Shown here: in pieces, positions 3,116 through 19,800 of the stretch
Position numbering within the stretch: position 1 is the first letter of the stretch
How the letters are laid out: the number at the start of each line of letters is the position of its first letter
Assembly (NCBI GenBank): GCA_958296025.1
Contig: OY282430.1
Coordinates: 3,462,477 to 3,526,476, forward strand
From: an uncultured Pseudomonadales bacterium
GTDB taxonomy: Bacteria; Pseudomonadota; Gammaproteobacteria; Pseudomonadales; Azotimanducaceae
Direction: 5' to 3'
Length of the DNA stretch: 64,000 nt
Notes under the pieces: generated by a model
What the model was told of the DNA's origin: nothing
The model's database searches: none
Seen by the model: only the letters and a program-made list of their open reading frames with translations
Position numbers and translations under genes: made by a program

Positions 3116-3451
3116 TCAGCGAATTTTTTGCAGCAGGCCTTCGAGTTCGGCGATCAATTGGCGGCGCAGGAGGTCGGCTTGGGTTTGGTCCTCGCGGGCG
3201 TCCTCGGCCTGCAGGCGTTGACGGGCACCGTTGATGGTGAACCCTTGGTCGTGCAGCAGGCAGTGGATTTGCTGCAGCAGCAGAACTTCCCGCTGTTGGT
3301 AGTAGCGGCGGTTGCCACGCCGCCTGATTCCGCTGAGCTGCGGGAACTCCTGCTCCCAATAGCGCAACACATGGGGCTTGACGCCGAGCAACTTGCTGAC
3401 CTCGCCTATGGATAGGTAGCGCTTGGTGGGAATGGCCTGGGCGTCAGTCAT
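3116..3451 (-). CDS. MerR-family regulator downstream of ihfA
   Basis: Small transcriptional regulator of 111 residues. The N-terminal winged helix-turn-helix ([22 protein letters not shown]) is followed by the RRGNRRYY wing and a C-terminal coiled coil with no recognisable ligand domain or metal-binding cysteines. The chosen ATG at 3451 overlaps the ihfA stop (ATGACTGA), implying translational coupling; a longer frame from 3469 would overlap ihfA further. This MerR protein follows ihfA in many gammaproteobacteria, but its regulon is not established from sequence. It is the last protein gene of the infC-pheST-ihfA transcription unit, ahead of tRNA-Pro. Confidence 0.88.
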
Positions 3452-3752
3452 TGGGTTCCGGCCCGGCATAGCCGCTCACCCGGTTTCTGAGTTTTTGGCC
3501 GGGATGGAAGGTCACCACACGTCTGGCGGAAATGGGGACAGCTTGGCCGGTTTTGGGGTTTCTGCCGGGGCGCTCGTCCTTGTCGCGCAGCTCGAAGTTG
3601 CCGAAGCCGGATAGCTTGGTCGCCTCGTTTTGCTCGAGGGCCAGCGAAATTTCCTCAAAAAAGGCCTCGACGAACTCCTTGGCTTCGCGCTTGTTGAAAC
3701 CCAACTCCGCAAACAGCCGTTCCGCCATCTGTGCCTTGGTCAGCGTCGCCAC
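3444..3752 (-). CDS. ihfA: Integration host factor subunit alpha
   Basis: DNA-bending nucleoid protein of the HU/IHF family. It pairs with IhfB to bend specific sites in recombination, replication and transcription. The sequence is collinear with known IhfA from [11 protein letters not shown] onward and contains the GRNPKTG beta-arm with the intercalating Pro, for a length of 102 residues. The start is set at GTG 3752, where a strong GGGGGAGG Shine-Dalgarno lies 9 nt upstream and the family N-terminus (MxLTKA) begins; the 16-residue upstream extension from 3800 has no such support. The stop overlaps the merR-like start. Its place after pheT is the classical arrangement. Confidence 0.96.
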
Positions 3753-3822
3753 AAAAGTCAGCCTCCCCCGAAGGACTGTACTCGCCGGTTGCCCCGGCAC
3801 ACTATTAGAGACAGAAGGAGAG

Positions 3823-6291
3823 CTAGCGTAGTTGGGCGTTCAGCTTGGCCTGCAGCGCCGCCACCGCCTTGCCCATCCGTTGCGCAATCTCCGCGTCGGT
3901 GAGAGTGGACGATAGGTCTTGGAAGGTCAACCCCACAGCGACACTTTTTTTATTGGAATCAATATGTTTGCTGCGGTAAACATCGAAAAGGCGCAGCCCG
4001 GCAAGCGTATCGCCGAGGGCCGAGGACAGGGTTTCCTCGATCTGTTGGGCGGTGACGGTCTCATCCACCACAAAGGCCAAATCCCGCCGGGCGCTCGGCG
4101 TTTTGGGAATTTCGGTGAAGCGGCGCAGCGGATGCGCACTGGCTGCTTCGGCAGTGACTTCAAAGACGTAAACCCCGTGGCCAAGGTCCAACCGCTCCTC
4201 GATTTGGGGGTGCAGGCGGCCCAAGCGCCCGACCTCTTCGCCGCCGACCAGGATGGCGGCCCGTTGGCCGGGATGCAGCACCGGGTCGTCGGTGGCTGTG
4301 AACCTGAAGGCGGCGGCGCCGGGTTTGGCGGGTGCAGTCGCCGCATCGGAAGAGGGGCTTGATTGCCGGGACCCATGCAGACGATTTGGCCCCAACGCCC
4401 ACTCGAGCAGGCTCTCGACGGCACCCTTCAGGTCGAAAAAATCCACATCCACCTGCTTTCCATGCCAGGATTCCGGGTGCCGTGTTCCCCACAGCAAGCC
4501 GCCCAGCAAGGCGACCTGCTGCAACGGCCCGCCCGCCTGGCCGCTCGGCTTGAAGCACAGGCCCAGCTCGAACAGCTGTGCCCGGGGCTGTTGCCGGTTT
4601 TGGTTGAAGCGCAGCACTTCGGTCAGGCCGGGCAGCAGATTGGTGCGCATCACCGACTGTTCGGAGGACATGGGGTTAGCCAAGGCCAGGGCCTCCCCGT
4701 CAGGGTCGAGAAGCCCTTGACGGGTGGGGTCTATAAAGCTGTAGGTGATGACCTCCTGAAAGCCCGTGGCGGCCAACTGCTCCTTCAGCCGCCGTTCGCT
4801 GCTGCGCTGCAAGGCCGCCGGACGGGGCGCGAGGGCGGCCTTTGGCAGAATGCTGGGAATGCGCTGGTAGCCGTGGATACGGCAGACCTCCTCCACCAGA
4901 TCCGCCTCGATCACGATGTCGAAGCGGTGCGACGGAGGGGCGATGGTCCAGATCAGGCCACCGGCCTCGGTCGGGCGACGGGAAAGCACCTCGAAGCCGA
5001 GCCGGGCAAACAGGGCATCGACTTCGGCGCCGTCGATGTCCGCCCCAGCCAGTTCCCGCAGGCGGTTTTGGCGCATCGACACCGGCGCTCGACCCGGCAG
5101 ATGCGGCGCTGCTTCGGCAGCGCAGACCGGCCCGGCTTGGCCACCGGCGATGTCGAGCAGCAAAGCCGTGGCCCGTTCCATGGCGGCCGTCGGCAGGTCG
5201 AAATCGACGCCGCGTTCATACCGTTGGGAGGCGTCCGTGTGCAGGCCGAAGCGGCGCGCCGTGGCGGCCACGGTCAAGGGATCGAAGTAGGCGCATTCCA
5301 AGAAGACGTCTTGAGTGCTTGGCTGCACACCGCTGCGCTCGCCGCCTATCACCCCGGCGAGGGCCACCGGGCCGCCGCCATCGGCGATAACCAGCACCGA
5401 CGGGTCCAGTTCGACTTCGCGCCCACCCAGCAGCCTGAGCACCTCACCAGTGGCGGCCCAGCGCACGCAGATGGACTCACGCAAAACCTGCAGGTCAAAG
5501 GCGTGCATGGGTTGGCCGAGCTCCAGCAGGACGTAGTTGGTGACGTCCACCACCGGATGGATGCTGCGCAGCCCGCTGCGGCGAAGGCGCTCCCGCATCC
5601 AAATAGGCGTGGCGGCTTGGCCGTTGACGCCGCTGATGACGCGGCCCAAGTAGCGCGGACAGCCTTCCGGGGCCTCCAGAACCACGGCGAAGGCGGCGTC
5701 CGTGGCCGCTACGATGGGGGATGTTGGCGGCGCTCGCACCGGCAGGCCGTTGTGGACGCCGACTTCCCTGGCCAGCCCGCGCAAACTGAGGCAATCGCCG
5801 CGGTTGGGGGTTAGATCGACCTCAATGCTGTGGTCATCGAGGGTCAGCGCCGCGTACAGCGCCGCGCCTGGTTCGTGGCCATCGCCTAAGTCCAAGATGC
5901 CGGCGGCATCCTCGCCAAGACCCAGCTCGGCGGCGCTGCACAGCATGCCGGCGGAGGAAACGCCGCGAATGTCCGCCTGCTCGACGCGGACATCGCCAGG
6001 CAGCAGAGCGCCGGGCCGCGCCAACGCGGATATCAGGCCGGGCCGCGCATTGGGCGCAGCGCAGACCACCTGTCGGACTGCACCGCCATCCTGCACTTGG
6101 CAGACGCTCAAGCGCCCGGCCGGGTGGGGCTCCACTCGATCAATGCGGGCCACCACCACACCTGGCAGCGGAGAGGCTACGGGGACGACGGCCTCCACCT
6201 CCAGGCCGGCCATGGTCAACTGCTCCACCAGCGCCTGCCGGTCGATGGGCGGATCCACCCATTCGCGCAGCCAAGCCTCGCTGAACTTCAT
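3823..6291 (-). CDS. pheT: Phenylalanine--tRNA ligase beta subunit
   Basis: Beta subunit of the alpha2-beta2 class II PheRS, which charges tRNA-Phe in the cytoplasm; this subunit binds tRNA and edits mischarged Tyr. At 822 residues it is slightly longer than the roughly 795 usual. It begins [19 protein letters not shown], has the OB-fold EMAP-like domain near residues 40-150, the B3/B4 editing region ([30 protein letters not shown]), the B5 domain and a C-terminal anticodon-binding FDX-ACB domain ([13 protein letters not shown]). A small Ala/Pro-rich insert lies before the last domain ([15 protein letters not shown]). It follows pheS after 100 bp. Confidence 0.97.
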
Positions 6292-14119: not shown

Positions 14120-16003
14120 TTGAGCTACGCCTCCCTTTACCAGCGTTCCCTGATAGACCCGGAAGGGTTTTGGCGGGAGCGGGCCGAGGAAATCCCTTGG
14201 CTGGAGTTTCCGCCCAGCGTTTTGGAGCAAGACGGCAACGGCGCTTGGCGCTGGTTTCGCGGCGGCAAGACCAACACTTGTTGGCTGGCCTTGGACCGCC
14301 ACGTCGAAGCGGGGCGGGGAGAGCAAACCGCGCTGATTTACGATTCGCCGGTCACCGGCACGGTCACCCGGCACAGCTATGCGCAGCTTAGGGACCGGGC
14401 GGCGCGGGTGGCCGGCGGCCTCAAGGCGCTGGGGGTGGGCAAGGGCGACCGGGTGGTCCTCTACATGCCGATGGTGCCGGAGGCGGTCATCGCCATGCTG
14501 GCCTGCGCCCGCATCGGCGCCGTCCACTCCGTGGTGTTCGGCGGCTTCGCCGCGCCGGAATTGGCCAGCCGCATAGACGACGCCGCTCCCAAGGTGATCC
14601 TGAGCGCCTCCTGCGGCATCGAGGTGGCCACCGTCATTCCCTACAAGCCGTTGCTCGACGAGGCCATCCGCTTGGCGCGGCATCCGCCGGCCCACTGCGT
14701 GGTGCTGCAACGGCCGCAGTGCGAAGCGGCGCTGATTCCGGGCCGGGACTTGGATTGGGCGGGCTGGGAGGCGGCTGCGGCGCCGGCGCAGTGGACGTCG
14801 CTGGACGCCCTGGACCCCCTCTACATCCTCTACACCTCCGGCACCACCGGCAAACCCAAGGGTGTAGTGCGCGACACCGGCGGTCATGCGGTGGCGCTGC
14901 ACTGGACCATGCACGCCATTTACGGCGTCGAGGCCGGGGACGTGTTCTGGGCGGCATCGGACGTGGGCTGGGTGGTGGGCCACTCCTACATCGTCTATGG
15001 CCCCCTGCTGCGTGGCTGCACCACTGTGCTGTTCGAGGGCAAGCCGGTGCGCACACCGGACGCCAGGGCGTTCTGGCGGGTGATTCAAGACCACCGGGTC
15101 AACTGCTTCTTCACCGCGCCCACCGCCTTCCGCGCCATCAAGAAAGAAGATCCGCACTGCCGCCTCAAGCAGAGCTACGATCTCTCCTCACTGCGCTATC
15201 AATTCGTCGCCGGGGAGCGGCTCGACCCGCCCACCTACCACTGGCTTAAGCAGCACTTGGACATTCCCGTCATCGACCACTGGTGGCAGACGGAGACCGG
15301 CTGGTCCATCTGCACCAACCTCGCCGGAGTGGAACTGATGGAGACCCGCCCCGGCTCCCCAACCGTGCCGGCACCGGGCTACGACCTGCGCATTCTGGAC
15401 GAAGGCGGGCGCGAGCTTGGCTCCGGCGAACAGGGCGCCATCGTCATCAAGGCGCCGCTGCCGCCGGGCGCCTTCACCACCATCTGGCGCGACCACGAGC
15501 GCTATGCCGATGCCTATTGGTCCCGCTACCCGGGCTTCTACCTAACCGGGGACGGCGGCCACCGGGACGCGGACGGTTATGTCTATGTCATGGGCCGGAT
15601 AGACGACGTGATCAACGTGGCCGGCCACCGCCTTTCGACGGGTCAGCTGGAGGAGGTGGTGGCCAGCCATTCGGCAGTGGCGGAATGCGCCGTGGTCGGC
15701 GTTCAGGATGCCGACAAGGGCCAAGTGCCGTTCGGCCTAGTGGTGCTGAAGGACGGCGTGAACTTGGGGGAGGCCGCACTGCAGGCGGAGTTGGTGCAAT
15801 TGGTGCGCACCCAGGTCGGCCCCTTCGCCAACTTCAAGCAGGCCGTGCTGGTGGCGCGGCTGCCGAAGACCCGCTCCGGCAAAATCCTGCGCCAAGCCTT
15901 GCGTCAGTTGTTGGATGGAGAAACCCCAACCATTCCCTCCACCATTGATGACCCGGCCATCATCGGCGAGATCGAAGCGCGGCTACGGGAAGTGGCACCC
16001 TAA
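14120..16003 (+). CDS. prpE: Propionyl-CoA synthetase (acetyl-CoA synthetase-like)
   Basis: AMP-forming acyl-CoA synthetase of 627 residues, closest in pattern to PrpE, which activates propionate with ATP and CoA. An N-terminal ACAS domain precedes the AMP-binding core: YTSGTTGKPKGVVRDTGG near 238, GWVVGHSYIVYGPLLRG, and HWWQTETGW. The C-terminal lid carries the catalytic Lys in KTRSGKILR near 583. PrpE-type features are VVRDTGGHAVAL and a shorter N-terminus than Acs. The start appears to be TTG 14120; the ribosome-binding site is weak. Its 3' end overlaps the convergent arsC by a few bases. It belongs with mmsA and the epimerase in propionyl-CoA metabolism. Confidence 0.88.
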   Translation: MSYASLYQRSLIDPEGFWRERAEEIPWLEFPPSVLEQDGNGAWRWFRGGKTNTCWLALDRHVEAGRGEQTALIYDSPVTGTVTRHSYAQLRDRAARVAGGLKALGVGKGDRVVLYMPMVPEAVIAMLACARIGAVHSVVFGGFAAPELASRIDDAAPKVILSASCGIEVATVIPYKPLLDEAIRLARHPPAHCVVLQRPQCEAALIPGRDLDWAGWEAAAAPAQWTSLDALDPLYILYTSGTTGKPKGVVRDTGGHAVALHWTMHAIYGVEAGDVFWAASDVGWVVGHSYIVYGPLLRGCTTVLFEGKPVRTPDARAFWRVIQDHRVNCFFTAPTAFRAIKKEDPHCRLKQSYDLSSLRYQFVAGERLDPPTYHWLKQHLDIPVIDHWWQTETGWSICTNLAGVELMETRPGSPTVPAPGYDLRILDEGGRELGSGEQGAIVIKAPLPPGAFTTIWRDHERYADAYWSRYPGFYLTGDGGHRDADGYVYVMGRIDDVINVAGHRLSTGQLEEVVASHSAVAECAVVGVQDADKGQVPFGLVVLKDGVNLGEAALQAELVQLVRTQVGPFANFKQAVLVARLPKTRSGKILRQALRQLLDGETPTIPSTIDDPAIIGEIEARLREVAP

Positions 16004-17003: not shown

Positions 17004-17450
17004 ATGAACAACCCTGAACCCATAGGCCGCTTCGACCACATCGGCATCGCCGTCCACAGCATCGACAAGGCGCTGCCATTCTTCGCCGACGCCTTGGGCG
17101 CCAAGCTGCGGCGCATCGGCAACAGCCGCGACGGCAGTTTCCGGGTCGCCATCCTGGACCTGCACGACTTCTGCATTGAACTGCTGGAGCCCATTGACCC
17201 CAACGGCTTTCTCGCCAAGCACTTGGCGGCCCGCGGCGAAGGCGTCCACCACATCACCCTGCAAACCCCGGACCTTGAGCGCAAAACCCTGCTGCTGGAG
17301 GCGGCCGGCATCCGCGTCGTGGAAAAGGAGTTTGCAGACCCAAACAACATCGGCGCCTTCATCTCCCCCAAAAGCGCCCACGGCGTGCTGATTCAATTGG
17401 GCCAAACCTTGGGGCCGCTGAACAATCCGCCGCATTGGCAGCACGAATAG
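17004..17450 (+). CDS. mce: Methylmalonyl-CoA epimerase (VOC family)
   Basis: Glyoxalase/VOC-fold metalloenzyme of 148 residues interconverting (R)- and (S)-methylmalonyl-CoA. Metal ligands are visible as His in FDHIGIAVHS, Glu/His in the EGVHHITLQT region and Glu/Asp-type positions in the second half (SPKSAHGVLIQL). These motifs match bacterial Mce. Start ATG 17004 has GAGGA upstream; a longer frame from 16971 is less likely. It suggests propionyl-CoA is oxidised through methylmalonyl-CoA, in line with prpE and mmsA in the same window. The carboxylase and mutase are not here. Confidence 0.87.
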   Translation: MNNPEPIGRFDHIGIAVHSIDKALPFFADALGAKLRRIGNSRDGSFRVAILDLHDFCIELLEPIDPNGFLAKHLAARGEGVHHITLQTPDLERKTLLLEAAGIRVVEKEFADPNNIGAFISPKSAHGVLIQLGQTLGPLNNPPHWQHE

Positions 17451-17569
17451 CGGTCGGGGGTTGTCTTCAGAACGGCGTAGCCGAGTTGGGGTGGTTCGCT
17501 CCCCATTCAAGAACAGGCTGCCAAGGCGATGCCTCAGACCAGAGAGGGGTTGGGCCCTGGGTCTCCTAA

Positions 17570-17929
17570 GCCCACGATTCGACGGAACCAAATCTGCTCA
17601 TCGGCTCAGTTGTCCAGCGGTTCAGAATCGCCCGACTAGGTTTATCAGCCGCGGAGATGGTTGTCCTTATCAACGTACTTATGTATTGGTGGACCCCAGA
17701 GCAATGGCCTCATCCGAGGCCTAGACAAATTGCCAATAGGATGGGTGGAACGACGCGTACGGCTGAGCGGCAGCTGAAGAAGCTCGAACGCAGGGGGTTG
17801 ATTCGGCGTTTGCCGAGTGAAGAGAATGGAAAAGGTCCTCGAATTCGGCGGATTGATCTGACTGGTTTAATTCAGGTGCTTCAAGAGCTAGCCGAAGAGC
17901 TCCGTTCTCACCCAAGTTTTTCAGGATAG
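17570..17929 (+). CDS. Winged-helix DNA-binding protein, start uncertain
   Basis: An open frame from 17570, with the first ATG at 17657, encodes AEMVVLINVLMYWWTPEQ, then PRPRQIANRMGGTTRTAERQ and LKKLERRGLIRRLPSEE. This is the helix-turn-helix plus wing layout common in phage- and plasmid-borne DnaD/Rep-like or MarR-like regulators. Protein-like sequence continues upstream of the ATG (GSVVQRFRIARLGLSA) without a canonical start, so the gene is either 5'-truncated or starts at a CTG or ATC codon. The N-terminal part lies in the left direct repeat. Function cannot be assigned beyond DNA binding. Confidence 0.55.
   Translation, partial: AHDSTEPNLLIGSVVQRFRIARLGLSAAEMVVLINVLMYWWTPEQWPHPRPRQIANRMGGTTRTAERQLKKLERRGLIRRLPSEENGKGPRIRRIDLTGLIQVLQELAEELRSHPSFSG
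17577..17629 (+). repeat. Direct repeat, left copy (53 bp)
   Basis: Matches 19748-19800: the first 32 bp differ at one position and the remaining 21 bp at about six. It lies 126 bp after the epimerase gene. In one frame both copies read EPNLLIGS..Q..RI, and here this frame runs straight into the winged-helix gene. Confidence 0.8.
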
Positions 17930-17958
17930 CAGGGGAAAGTGGGAGATTTCACGACTAA

Positions 17959-18069
17959 TGCGGCGTAGCTTAAACGGACAAAGCCCCTAGGTTCGAGGTA
18001 CACGACTAGTTTGACACCTATAGTGTACCGCCTAGGAGGATGCAGGTTCGAGTCCTGCCGTCGCTACCA
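17959..18069 (+). tRNA. tRNA-Arg(UCG)-like gene with 34-nt hairpin insert in the anticodon loop
   Basis: A 111-nt tRNA-like sequence ending in encoded CCA. Acceptor TGCGGCG/CGTCGCT pairs in 6 of 7 positions (U-U at 1-72). The D-arm GCTT-AAACGGACA-AAGC has A14, G18G19 and A21; the anticodon stem is CCTAG/CTAGG; the variable loop is AGGAT; the T-arm GCAGG-TTCGAGT-CCTGC is canonical. Between A37 (17996) and C38 (18031) lie 34 extra nt (17997-18030) forming GGTACAC/GTGTACC around a 19-nt loop. Without them the molecule is a regular 77-nt tRNA with U33, anticodon UCG and the arginine identity bases A20, C35 and G36. It is far too short for a group I intron. It may be a pseudo-tRNA or an interrupted tRNA. 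Confidence 0.6.
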
Positions 18070-18219
18070 CAGTCGAATTCATCTCTACATCGCAGCGGTC
18101 TCTAGCCCTATGCCGGTTTGTGGCTGCGAGTGACGGCCTCGTGGTATGGTTCCGCCTAGTTCAGCGCCCTGCTGTGCAAGAACGGGTTGTGCATTGGCGT
18201 GACGAGCTCAGGGTGAAGT

Positions 18220-19010
18220 ATGGTGGATGAGGAGATCGGCCAGCCTCCGGCGCAAAGCGGCGGTCTAGCTCTGCCGAAAACCATGGCGGCTCACTTCGCC
18301 ACCCTCATTGAGCATTTAGGCCGCCATCTTCCGGTCCATCGCTTGGTCATGGGCGGTGGCAGCATTTTGGCGGCGCACTGGGGGCACAGAGCGTCCACGG
18401 ACATTGACTTATTCACGTCTTACAGCGCCATGAAGGACATGCTTGACGATGCGGGGTGCGCCTGCAGCTAGCCTTGGCGGGGGTTCCATCCCGCCAACCA
18501 GCCCAGGTTTTGCCTTCTGGGCTTGTGTGCGGTGACGTACAGGGAACGCCGTTTTCTTTGCATGACAACCTTTTCGTCAGTGATGACAGGTTGCCTACGG
18601 AGAGCGTTTGCGGCACTCCTGTGCAGGCCGCCACCGTGGGGGAGGTGTTTGACGGCAAAATACTGGGGCGTCTATTGAATCACAGCCTTGGCGCTTACCG
18701 CCCGCCACCGGTGCGGGATTTGTATGACATTGTCGTTGGCGCTCAGAAAGTTCCTGAAGTAATGCAAAATGCCTTGGATCGCTTGTCTGAGGAGGATGCG
18801 CTGGCAATGGCTGAGTATCTGCATGCCACTACTGACAAATGGCACCAACAAGACTCTAAGCGGCTTATTGATGCCCGATGGGACGTCAGGCTTGACGGTC
18901 TTCCAAGGCGCATGGCAGCTGCCTTCCGCAGCCGGAACGTGGCCGTCATGCCCATTGCGGCAATCCGGGAGCGCCGCGACAGCGACCGAGAACAGGACGA
19001 GAAAGCATGA
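18220..19010 (+). pseudogene. AbiEii-type nucleotidyltransferase, split by a one-base frameshift
   Basis: The first frame (18220-18471) carries the nucleotidyltransferase signature MGGGSILAAHWGHRASTDIDLF, as in AbiEii/AbiGii toxin-like proteins. It stops at CACS. The continuation in the -1 frame runs from about GTG 18456 (VRLQLALAG) to 19010, with VGEVFDGKILGRLL and VRDLYDIVVGAQKV typical of the C-terminal half. Joining at the GGGG run 18453-18456 gives about 260 residues, the family length. Either one G was lost (inactivation or sequencing error) or slippage occurs at this run. Family members transfer nucleotides to tRNA or protein targets in phage defence. The upstream gene shows no AbiEi antitoxin features. 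Confidence 0.75.
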
Positions 19011-19747: not shown

Positions 19748-19800
19748 ATTCGGCGGAACCAAATCTGCTCATCGGCTCACTTGCTCAGTGGTCAAGAATC
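19748..19800 (+). repeat. Direct repeat, right copy (53 bp)
   Basis: Partner of 17577-17629. It lies 10 bp beyond the proS stop codon. In the frame of the winged-helix gene it reads EPNLLIGSLAQWSRIQYGLAL, similar to but not identical with the left copy, and there is no following HTH sequence. Confidence 0.8.

Follow-up and report, generated by a model that had tools for sequence, protein, structure and literature searches.

The window, the whole 64,000-nt stretch of DNA analysed here, carries a small island in which a tRNA-Arg-like RNA element is preceded by the truncated remainder of a winged-helix (wHTH) gene and followed by a frameshifted AbiEii-like nucleotidyltransferase gene (Table 1). 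Reading of the sequence confirmed the architecture described for the element in an earlier note on this DNA: all arms of a tRNA are present, a 34-nt insert (17997-18030) follows position 37 and forms a perfect 7-bp stem around 19 nt, and the remainder without the insert is a complete tRNA of 77 nt. In the predicted fold, a 7-bp anticodon helix, within which base 18030 of the insert is paired, is followed by the one-sided UCGA bulge and by a second 7-bp helix stacked on the first. In the lowest-energy fold of the window RNA, the D and T regions form pairings other than those of the cloverleaf.

Table 1. Features of the RNA element and its neighbouring genes in the window (R1, covariance model of the RNA family, built from 16 rows, of which the window RNA is itself one; G005, a genome of the same genus)
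Feature	Position	Strand	Basis
tRNA-Arg-like RNA with extended anticodon arm, whole element	17959..18069	+	RF00005, 43.6 bits (match to 17959-18066; gathering 29; E 5.7e-6); R1, 91.4 bits; 110/111 identical in G005
A20 of D loop, main bacterial arginine identity determinant	17978	+	A in 33/33 members
Lengthened anticodon helix, 5' strand (27-31 plus 32, 33); partner strand 18030-18036	17986..17992	+	Predicted fold, covariation
One-sided bulge UCGA (anticodon UCG and A37)	17993..17996	+	Predicted fold
Insert hairpin (stem 17997-18003/18023-18029, loop 18004-18022)	17997..18029	+	Sequence, predicted fold, covariation
T arm with T54, T55, C56, and A58	18042..18058	+	Sequence; each invariant in 33/33
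A73 and encoded CCA	18066..18069	+	Sequence; CCA encoded in 27/33 members
wHTH (MarR/HTH_36/DnaD_N-like) gene, partner gene of the RNA, 5'-truncated relative to G005	17657..17929	+	Pfam MarR, 2.5e-8; homologous to plasmid HTH proteins
AbiEii-like nucleotidyltransferase, frameshifted (ORFs 18220-18471 and 18456-19010)	18220..19010	+	Pfam AbiEii, 1e-5, first piece; second piece, no family

A scan with covariance models, as the earlier note had proposed, placed the element above the gathering score of the Rfam tRNA model, with the insert positioned in the anticodon loop. ARAGORN missed the window RNA with default settings and, when introns were allowed, called it Ser(CGA), with the start of the insert set 2 nt later; this assignment was rejected because of that 2-nt shift and because the family described below gives it no support. 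The 3.9-Mb chromosome of the genome containing the window (G000; one contig) has 43 tRNA-model matches, the window RNA included, and ARAGORN identified ordinary tRNA-Arg genes for CCG, UCG, ACG, CCU, and UCU, including the two (UCG and ACG) whose presence the earlier note had left to be checked. Since an ordinary tRNA-Arg set is already in the genome, the window RNA is not needed for decoding. No sigma-70-like promoter and no terminator-like site was found at window positions 17400-18300. A separate ARAGORN call, tRNA-Leu(CAG) at 15670-15751 (+), lies inside an acetyl-CoA synthetase-like frame (14120-16003, named by eye), receives no Rfam match, and is probably a false positive.

Eight genomes of the same genus were compared, of which one (G005) contains a counterpart of the RNA and the other seven contain none. 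The sole difference in the G005 copy lies in the anticodon stem, where it gives a C-A mismatch; the island around the RNA is 92-93% identical between the two genomes, and one difference in 111 nt against this background is modest evidence of selection on the RNA. The wHTH reading frame, directly upstream of the RNA, extends to as many as 183 aa in G005, where its product matches wHTH alignment A7 (hhalign probability 99.3%), and 90 aa are left in the window; likewise, the nucleotidyltransferase gene downstream forms one 263-aa frame in G005 and is frameshifted in the window. Given these two damaged neighbours, the window copy of the RNA may be decaying. Imperfect direct repeats of ~50 bp flank the island (window 17578-17640 and 19748-19800), and the corresponding repeat stretch in G005 adjoins a second copy of the 3' end of proS, so that approximately 570 bp were probably lost from the window by deletion.

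The AbiEii-like gene, to which the earlier note had drawn attention as the neighbour of the RNA, proved not to be a constant partner: interrupted tRNAs were detected only in L072, a plasmid with a wHTH gene (cmscan; 20 sources, 16 of them nucleotidyltransferase regions). The usual neighbour is the upstream wHTH gene, which that note did not mention. Elsewhere, at L077 (G000, 1751500-1755500) and L081 (G006), ordinary tRNA-Ser genes (GGA, UGA) have an AbiEii-like nucleotidyltransferase gene in their vicinity, and such nucleotidyltransferase toxins may favour tRNA genes as sites or as partners.

Distribution and conservation of the RNA family

It was by tracing the wHTH gene, rather than the nucleotidyltransferase, that the family was found. 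Homologues of the wHTH gene are plasmid genes, with 318 plasmid records, and all 40 matches listed are annotated as 'helix-turn-helix domain-containing protein'; a predicted model of the protein (mean pLDDT 78) has the DnaD N-terminal domain as its best match, followed by MarR-type regulators. Behind the Methylobacter homologue lie two tandem tRNA-like genes, 113 and 110 nt long, both of which contain a hairpin insert. The RNA is present in 9 of the 20 plasmid regions read and absent from the other 11. Plasmids that carry it behind the wHTH gene belong to Methylobacter (two copies), Methylocaldum (reached through its RNA, not through the wHTH gene), Spongiibacter, Methylosinus, Caulobacter, Xanthobacter, Bradyrhizobium, Sinorhizobium, and, weakly, Variovorax. 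A wHTH-led scan of genome contigs recovered the RNA in 25 of 55 loci (24 full, one truncated; near-copies included, many of them from Mesorhizobium), leaving 30 loci without it. As a DNA query against plasmids, the window RNA retrieved no direct relatives, and the Methylobacter pair retrieved two records, one of which was its own; phages gave only 27-36-nt matches in eight records, three of them annotated as tRNA.

Well-kept members score 68-112 bits with R1, against at most 64 bits for ordinary tRNAs among those listed. Four weaker members fall at 26-61 bits, namely L096 and L133 (about 60, level with ordinary tRNAs), L086 (41.7), and L139 (26, truncated). Ten genomes reached via known loci have one RNA locus each, arranged in tandem in Phenylobacterium. 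RNA-led searches, in which 10 candidates per genome were scored, found the RNA in at least 3 of the 369 genomes from the window's class and in at least 5 of the 385 from that of G845, a Phenylobacterium genome. Three of these eight genomes (G000, G845, and G851) were known beforehand; the five new loci and one viral-contig match make six, and a wHTH frame lies directly upstream of the RNA in three of them: L157 and L158 (both Pfam HTH_36) and L168 (alignment, 32% identity). A divergent wHTH-like gene precedes the RNA at L165 (hhalign probability 96%), and a C-terminal wHTH remnant, judged by eye, does so at L163. At L166 there is no wHTH gene, and the RNA (1501-1610) lies behind a DGQHR/DndB-like gene. 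Thus, a wHTH gene directly upstream is the usual arrangement, with L166 as the exception and with reduced forms of the gene in the window and at L163. Near the RNA, the viral contig L168 also has a frame (3418-4503) in which a DGQHR motif was recognised by eye, and the DGQHR genes of L166 and L168 possibly mark a second RNA context, tied to DNA modification or defence.

Conserved copies with covariation in the hairpin, which the earlier note had suggested looking for, were found. Members are about 106-114 nt long, and 33 of them, from Alpha- and Gammaproteobacteria among others, were aligned; the rows include the window RNA, the G005 copy, and near-copies, many from Mesorhizobium. In this alignment, covariation extends to every arm, 96.7% of cells are paired, and changes on both sides occur in 22 of the 28 pairs, values in which the fitting of the alignment to the model and the relatedness of the rows both favour structure. 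On each of five measures, none of 500 shuffles reached the observed value, and sliding the partner strands lowered pairing to 38-53%. The anticodon helix (helix 3) is paired in 98.2% of cells, with changes on both sides in all seven pairs, and the insert stem (helix 4) is paired in 88.3%, with such changes in all five modelled pairs. Changes on both sides are also readable in a 16-row MAFFT alignment that predates the model and in which the window row is shifted out of alignment at the anticodon stem. The four weaker members stand outside the 33 rows, as do L126, L128, L129, L138, L142, L143, and L147, which repeat kept rows. By comparison among members, the predicted family fold is shown to be a complete tRNA whose anticodon arm consists of a 6-7-bp helix, a one-sided bulge of 4-6 nt in which the anticodon lies together with position 37, and an additional hairpin.

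Conservation of the RNA exceeds that of its flanks between L094 and L156 (94.5% against 80.1% and 54.1%), between L102 and L103 (94.5% against 85.6% and 87.7%), and also between L094 and L102. The Mesorhizobium loci are mixed, the RNA being slightly less conserved than the upstream gene in L137/L140 and L141/L140. Within the insert, a subgroup (L096, L127, L130, L131, and L101) has GAAA opposite AGUA or similar, which we take to resemble a bulged-G (loop E) motif. Separately, GACA, CGCA, or a similar sequence occurs in the apical loop of 23 of the 33 members, a loose pattern scored with no control and only suggestive of a conserved motif there.

The arginine identity elements named in the earlier note (A20, C35, and G36) were borne out across the family, with A20, C35, and G/U36 present in all 33 members. 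Position 36 is G in 18 and U in 15, position 37 is A in 30 and U in 3, and the anticodons are UCG (16), UCU (14), GCG (1), ACG (1), and GCU (1). With C35 and G/U36 invariant, the anticodon is constrained exactly where arginyl-tRNA synthetase (ArgRS) reads it and less so at the wobble base. Among the tRNAs of G000 (42 of the 43 ARAGORN tRNAs parsed), G18G19A20 occurs in all five tRNA-Arg and in none of the 37 others. According to an excerpt of PMC9976931, the bacterial arginine identity set comprises A20, C35, U/G36, A/G73 (also U73), G2-C71, and C3-G70; of the two base pairs, G2-C71 is present in 29 and C3-G70 in 25 of the 33 members. Position 73 is not conserved, being C in 8, G in 6, A in 6, T in 4, and none in 3 of the 27 members with CCA (the six without CCA are unscored), so that the window RNA, with A73, has a base belonging to this set whereas the family as a whole does not. 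Six RNAs (among L094, L102, L103, and L095) have an extra base between the acceptor stem and N73-CCA, which in three of the six can pair with the base before position 1, making an acceptor stem of 8 bp possible.

Partner slot and proposed role of the RNA

In the 30 contig loci that lack the RNA, the gene next to the wHTH gene belongs to a cluster of 19 (representative, PemK-like toxin), a cluster of 5 with a below-cut-off match to PRK09717/YjaZ and no toxin annotation, or a cluster of 2 (representative, NYN nuclease), and 4 are unassigned; on an Aeromonas plasmid, the slot gene carries the annotation RelE/ParE toxin and has a match to Gp49. These slot families (PemK, PF02452; NYN, PF01936; Gp49/RelE-like, PF05973) were each tested through one representative. 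On a wHTH tree of 60 rows, drawn without 17 near-copies and L133 (too short), the RNA state is scattered among these partner types, with 14 changes for RNA versus other and 16 for all states. The starred branches force only nine changes, the RNA state is clustered beyond 492 of 500 shuffles, and part of the spread may be error, several branches being long. At 19 loci (L104-L113 and L115-L123, almost exclusively from Sphingomonadales according to the record titles), a PemK/MazF-like gene comes next after the wHTH gene, with an overlap of 4 nt in 13 of the 19, and wHTH-PemK is possibly an undescribed toxin-antitoxin pair.

Because homologous modules carry a gene for a PemK-like toxin, a NYN nuclease, or a RelE-like toxin in the slot taken here by the RNA, the RNA may itself be an effector. 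We infer that the wHTH protein is a regulator with an exchangeable partner, in this case a tRNA-Arg mimic likely to engage ArgRS. The reading preferred, in which confidence stays tentative, is that the RNAs constitute a conserved family of non-decoding tRNA-Arg mimics that would act as the effector of a wHTH module on plasmids and islands of Proteobacteria; the idea of a regulatory tRNA mimic, one of several entertained in the earlier note, holds up at the level of sequence. The wHTH gene and the RNA would probably share one operon, and the transcript would be matured by RNase P and a CCA-dependent route. ArgRS would then bind, and perhaps charge, the RNA, which as effector would act on the supply of arginyl-tRNA, with the wHTH protein serving as regulator or antidote. 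A more specific proposal, conceivable but on the unlikely side, is that the RNA traps or diverts ArgRS and is held in check by the wHTH protein, making an addiction or stress module in which either an effector RNA or a protein toxin occupies one operon position.

Several other roles were weighed. A plasmid RNA could serve as an anti-defence or anti-colicin decoy, binding nucleases that attack tRNA-Arg while its altered anticodon arm protects it from being cut. This would suit the location on mobile elements, the arginine-specific features, and the defence-type genes near some copies (restriction genes at L072 and L088; DGQHR genes at L166 and L168), and plasmid tRNA arrays have been proposed as antidefence, according to an excerpt of PMC12803027. 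Such arrays, however, hold tRNA sets for many amino acids, and viral contigs contribute a single match (L168), from one pattern scan, the wHTH-led searches having confirmed none. A decoy role is judged unlikely.

Ranked next, and given similarly little weight, is a cis-acting 3' element of the wHTH mRNA, whose folding, cleavage by RNase P, or binding by ArgRS would control wHTH expression. The gap between the wHTH stop codon and the RNA has a median of only 7 nt (range, -10 to 29 nt; 38 loci, near-copies included), and the wHTH-like frame of L165 overlaps the start of the RNA by 2 nt. At L157 (1501-1510), U8A9G10 of the RNA doubles as the wHTH stop codon (TAG), which RNase P cleavage would thus strip from the mRNA. 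Yet short gaps are expected in compact operons anyway, tandem copies (L072, L102, and L103) are hard to explain by a cis element, and the RNA remains well conserved both in the window and at L163, despite a truncated or remnant wHTH gene.

Less probable again is a true pre-tRNA-Arg from which an unknown system would splice the 34-nt insert, yielding a decoding tRNA. The insert does sit at 37/38, the canonical intron place; Arg anticodons are present in 32 of the 33 members and an encoded CCA in 27; and in the window RNA, which has a U before the anticodon and three bases before C35, excision would leave a loop of 7 nt. Against this, the base before the anticodon varies across the 33 members (T in 25, G in 3, A in 3, and a gap in 2, the gap rows being the window and G005, where a U does precede the anticodon and is placed in the helix). 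Of the 30 rows that could be split, 23 have, by our own count, four bases rather than three between the stem and C35, so that excision would give an 8-nt loop, and the anticodon of L165, GCU, would read Ser codons. No bulge-helix-bulge (BHB) motif was seen on inspection of the predicted folds, which have a one-sided bulge only. The splicing endonuclease EndA (PF01974) and RtcB (PF01139) were not found in G000 by a search that, as a control, found them in 4 and 9 of 14 genomes, respectively. An intron at 37/38, as the earlier note had envisaged, is thus disfavoured, and the insert reads better as a built-in extension of the anticodon arm. The variable base before the anticodon, the loop length that is not kept, and the lack of known splicing machinery in G000 support, rather than demonstrate, the view that the family RNA does not decode; the full Arg tRNA set of G000 likewise speaks against a pre-tRNA.

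A pseudogene or attachment-site remnant, in which a tRNA copy was broken by a small insertion, is highly improbable: the island lies between imperfect repeats and the neighbouring genes are damaged in the window, but the insert covaries family-wide, A20, C35, and G/U36 are kept in every member, and recurrence across at least two classes together with this covariation led to rejection of a recent pseudogene and leave the degraded tRNA suggested in the earlier note unsupported as the origin of the insert.

Comparison with known systems

If the RNAs are non-decoding tRNA-Arg mimics, as preferred here, the invariant bases of a tRNA-shaped RNA found on plasmids and islands spell out its target, ArgRS or a tRNA-Arg factor; if the insert is instead removed, it would be a short tRNA intron whose bacterial host lacks known splicing enzymes. 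Either outcome would be new within the literature searched: no description of such RNAs was found in the open-access full-text literature, as covered by titles and abstract openings and with subscription papers mostly outside its scope. At gathering scores, family RNAs match only the generic tRNA model in Rfam, and gene finders pass such genes as odd intron-bearing tRNAs or miss them, as ARAGORN did by default with the window copy.

With canonical bacterial tRNA-Arg, the family shares the cloverleaf with its D, anticodon, and T arms, G18G19, A20, C35, G/U36, the T loop, and, usually, an encoded CCA. It differs in the hairpin-extended anticodon arm, the placement of the anticodon in a one-sided bulge, the variable N73, and the position of the gene behind a wHTH gene, and neither U33 nor the 7-nt loop is kept across the family. 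Archaeal and eukaryotic tRNA introns at 37/38 have the same place as the insert and are of similar size; here, by contrast, the predicted folds show no BHB motif, G000 has no EndA, and the insert stem is stacked directly on the anticodon stem. Bacterial Y RNA-like YrlA also involves tRNA mimicry. Its Rfam model (RF02553) gives a sub-threshold match, 34.1 against 69 bits, that spans the two tandem copies in L072, linking the 3' half of the first with the 5' half of the second, and identity with YrlA was rejected on these grounds; a further difference is that the window's genome has no RtcB.

Group I introns likewise represent insertions into the anticodon loop of bacterial tRNA genes. The potential self-splicing introns of such genes are mostly over 200 nt, according to an excerpt of PMC8450103, whereas the insert described here is about 34 nt, and no Rfam intron match occurs within the window. 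The nearest published idea, as far as the excerpt of PMC8501985 goes, is the CreT RNA toxin of CreTA, which sequesters a rare tRNA via the tandem codons of a very small ORF and has CRISPR-Cas as its repressor. The likeness lies in a small RNA effector, in the present case a proposed one, that is directed against tRNA supply within a repressor-controlled module. CreT, however, acts by codons and not by tRNA shape, whereas the RNA of this family is itself tRNA-shaped and lies behind a wHTH gene.
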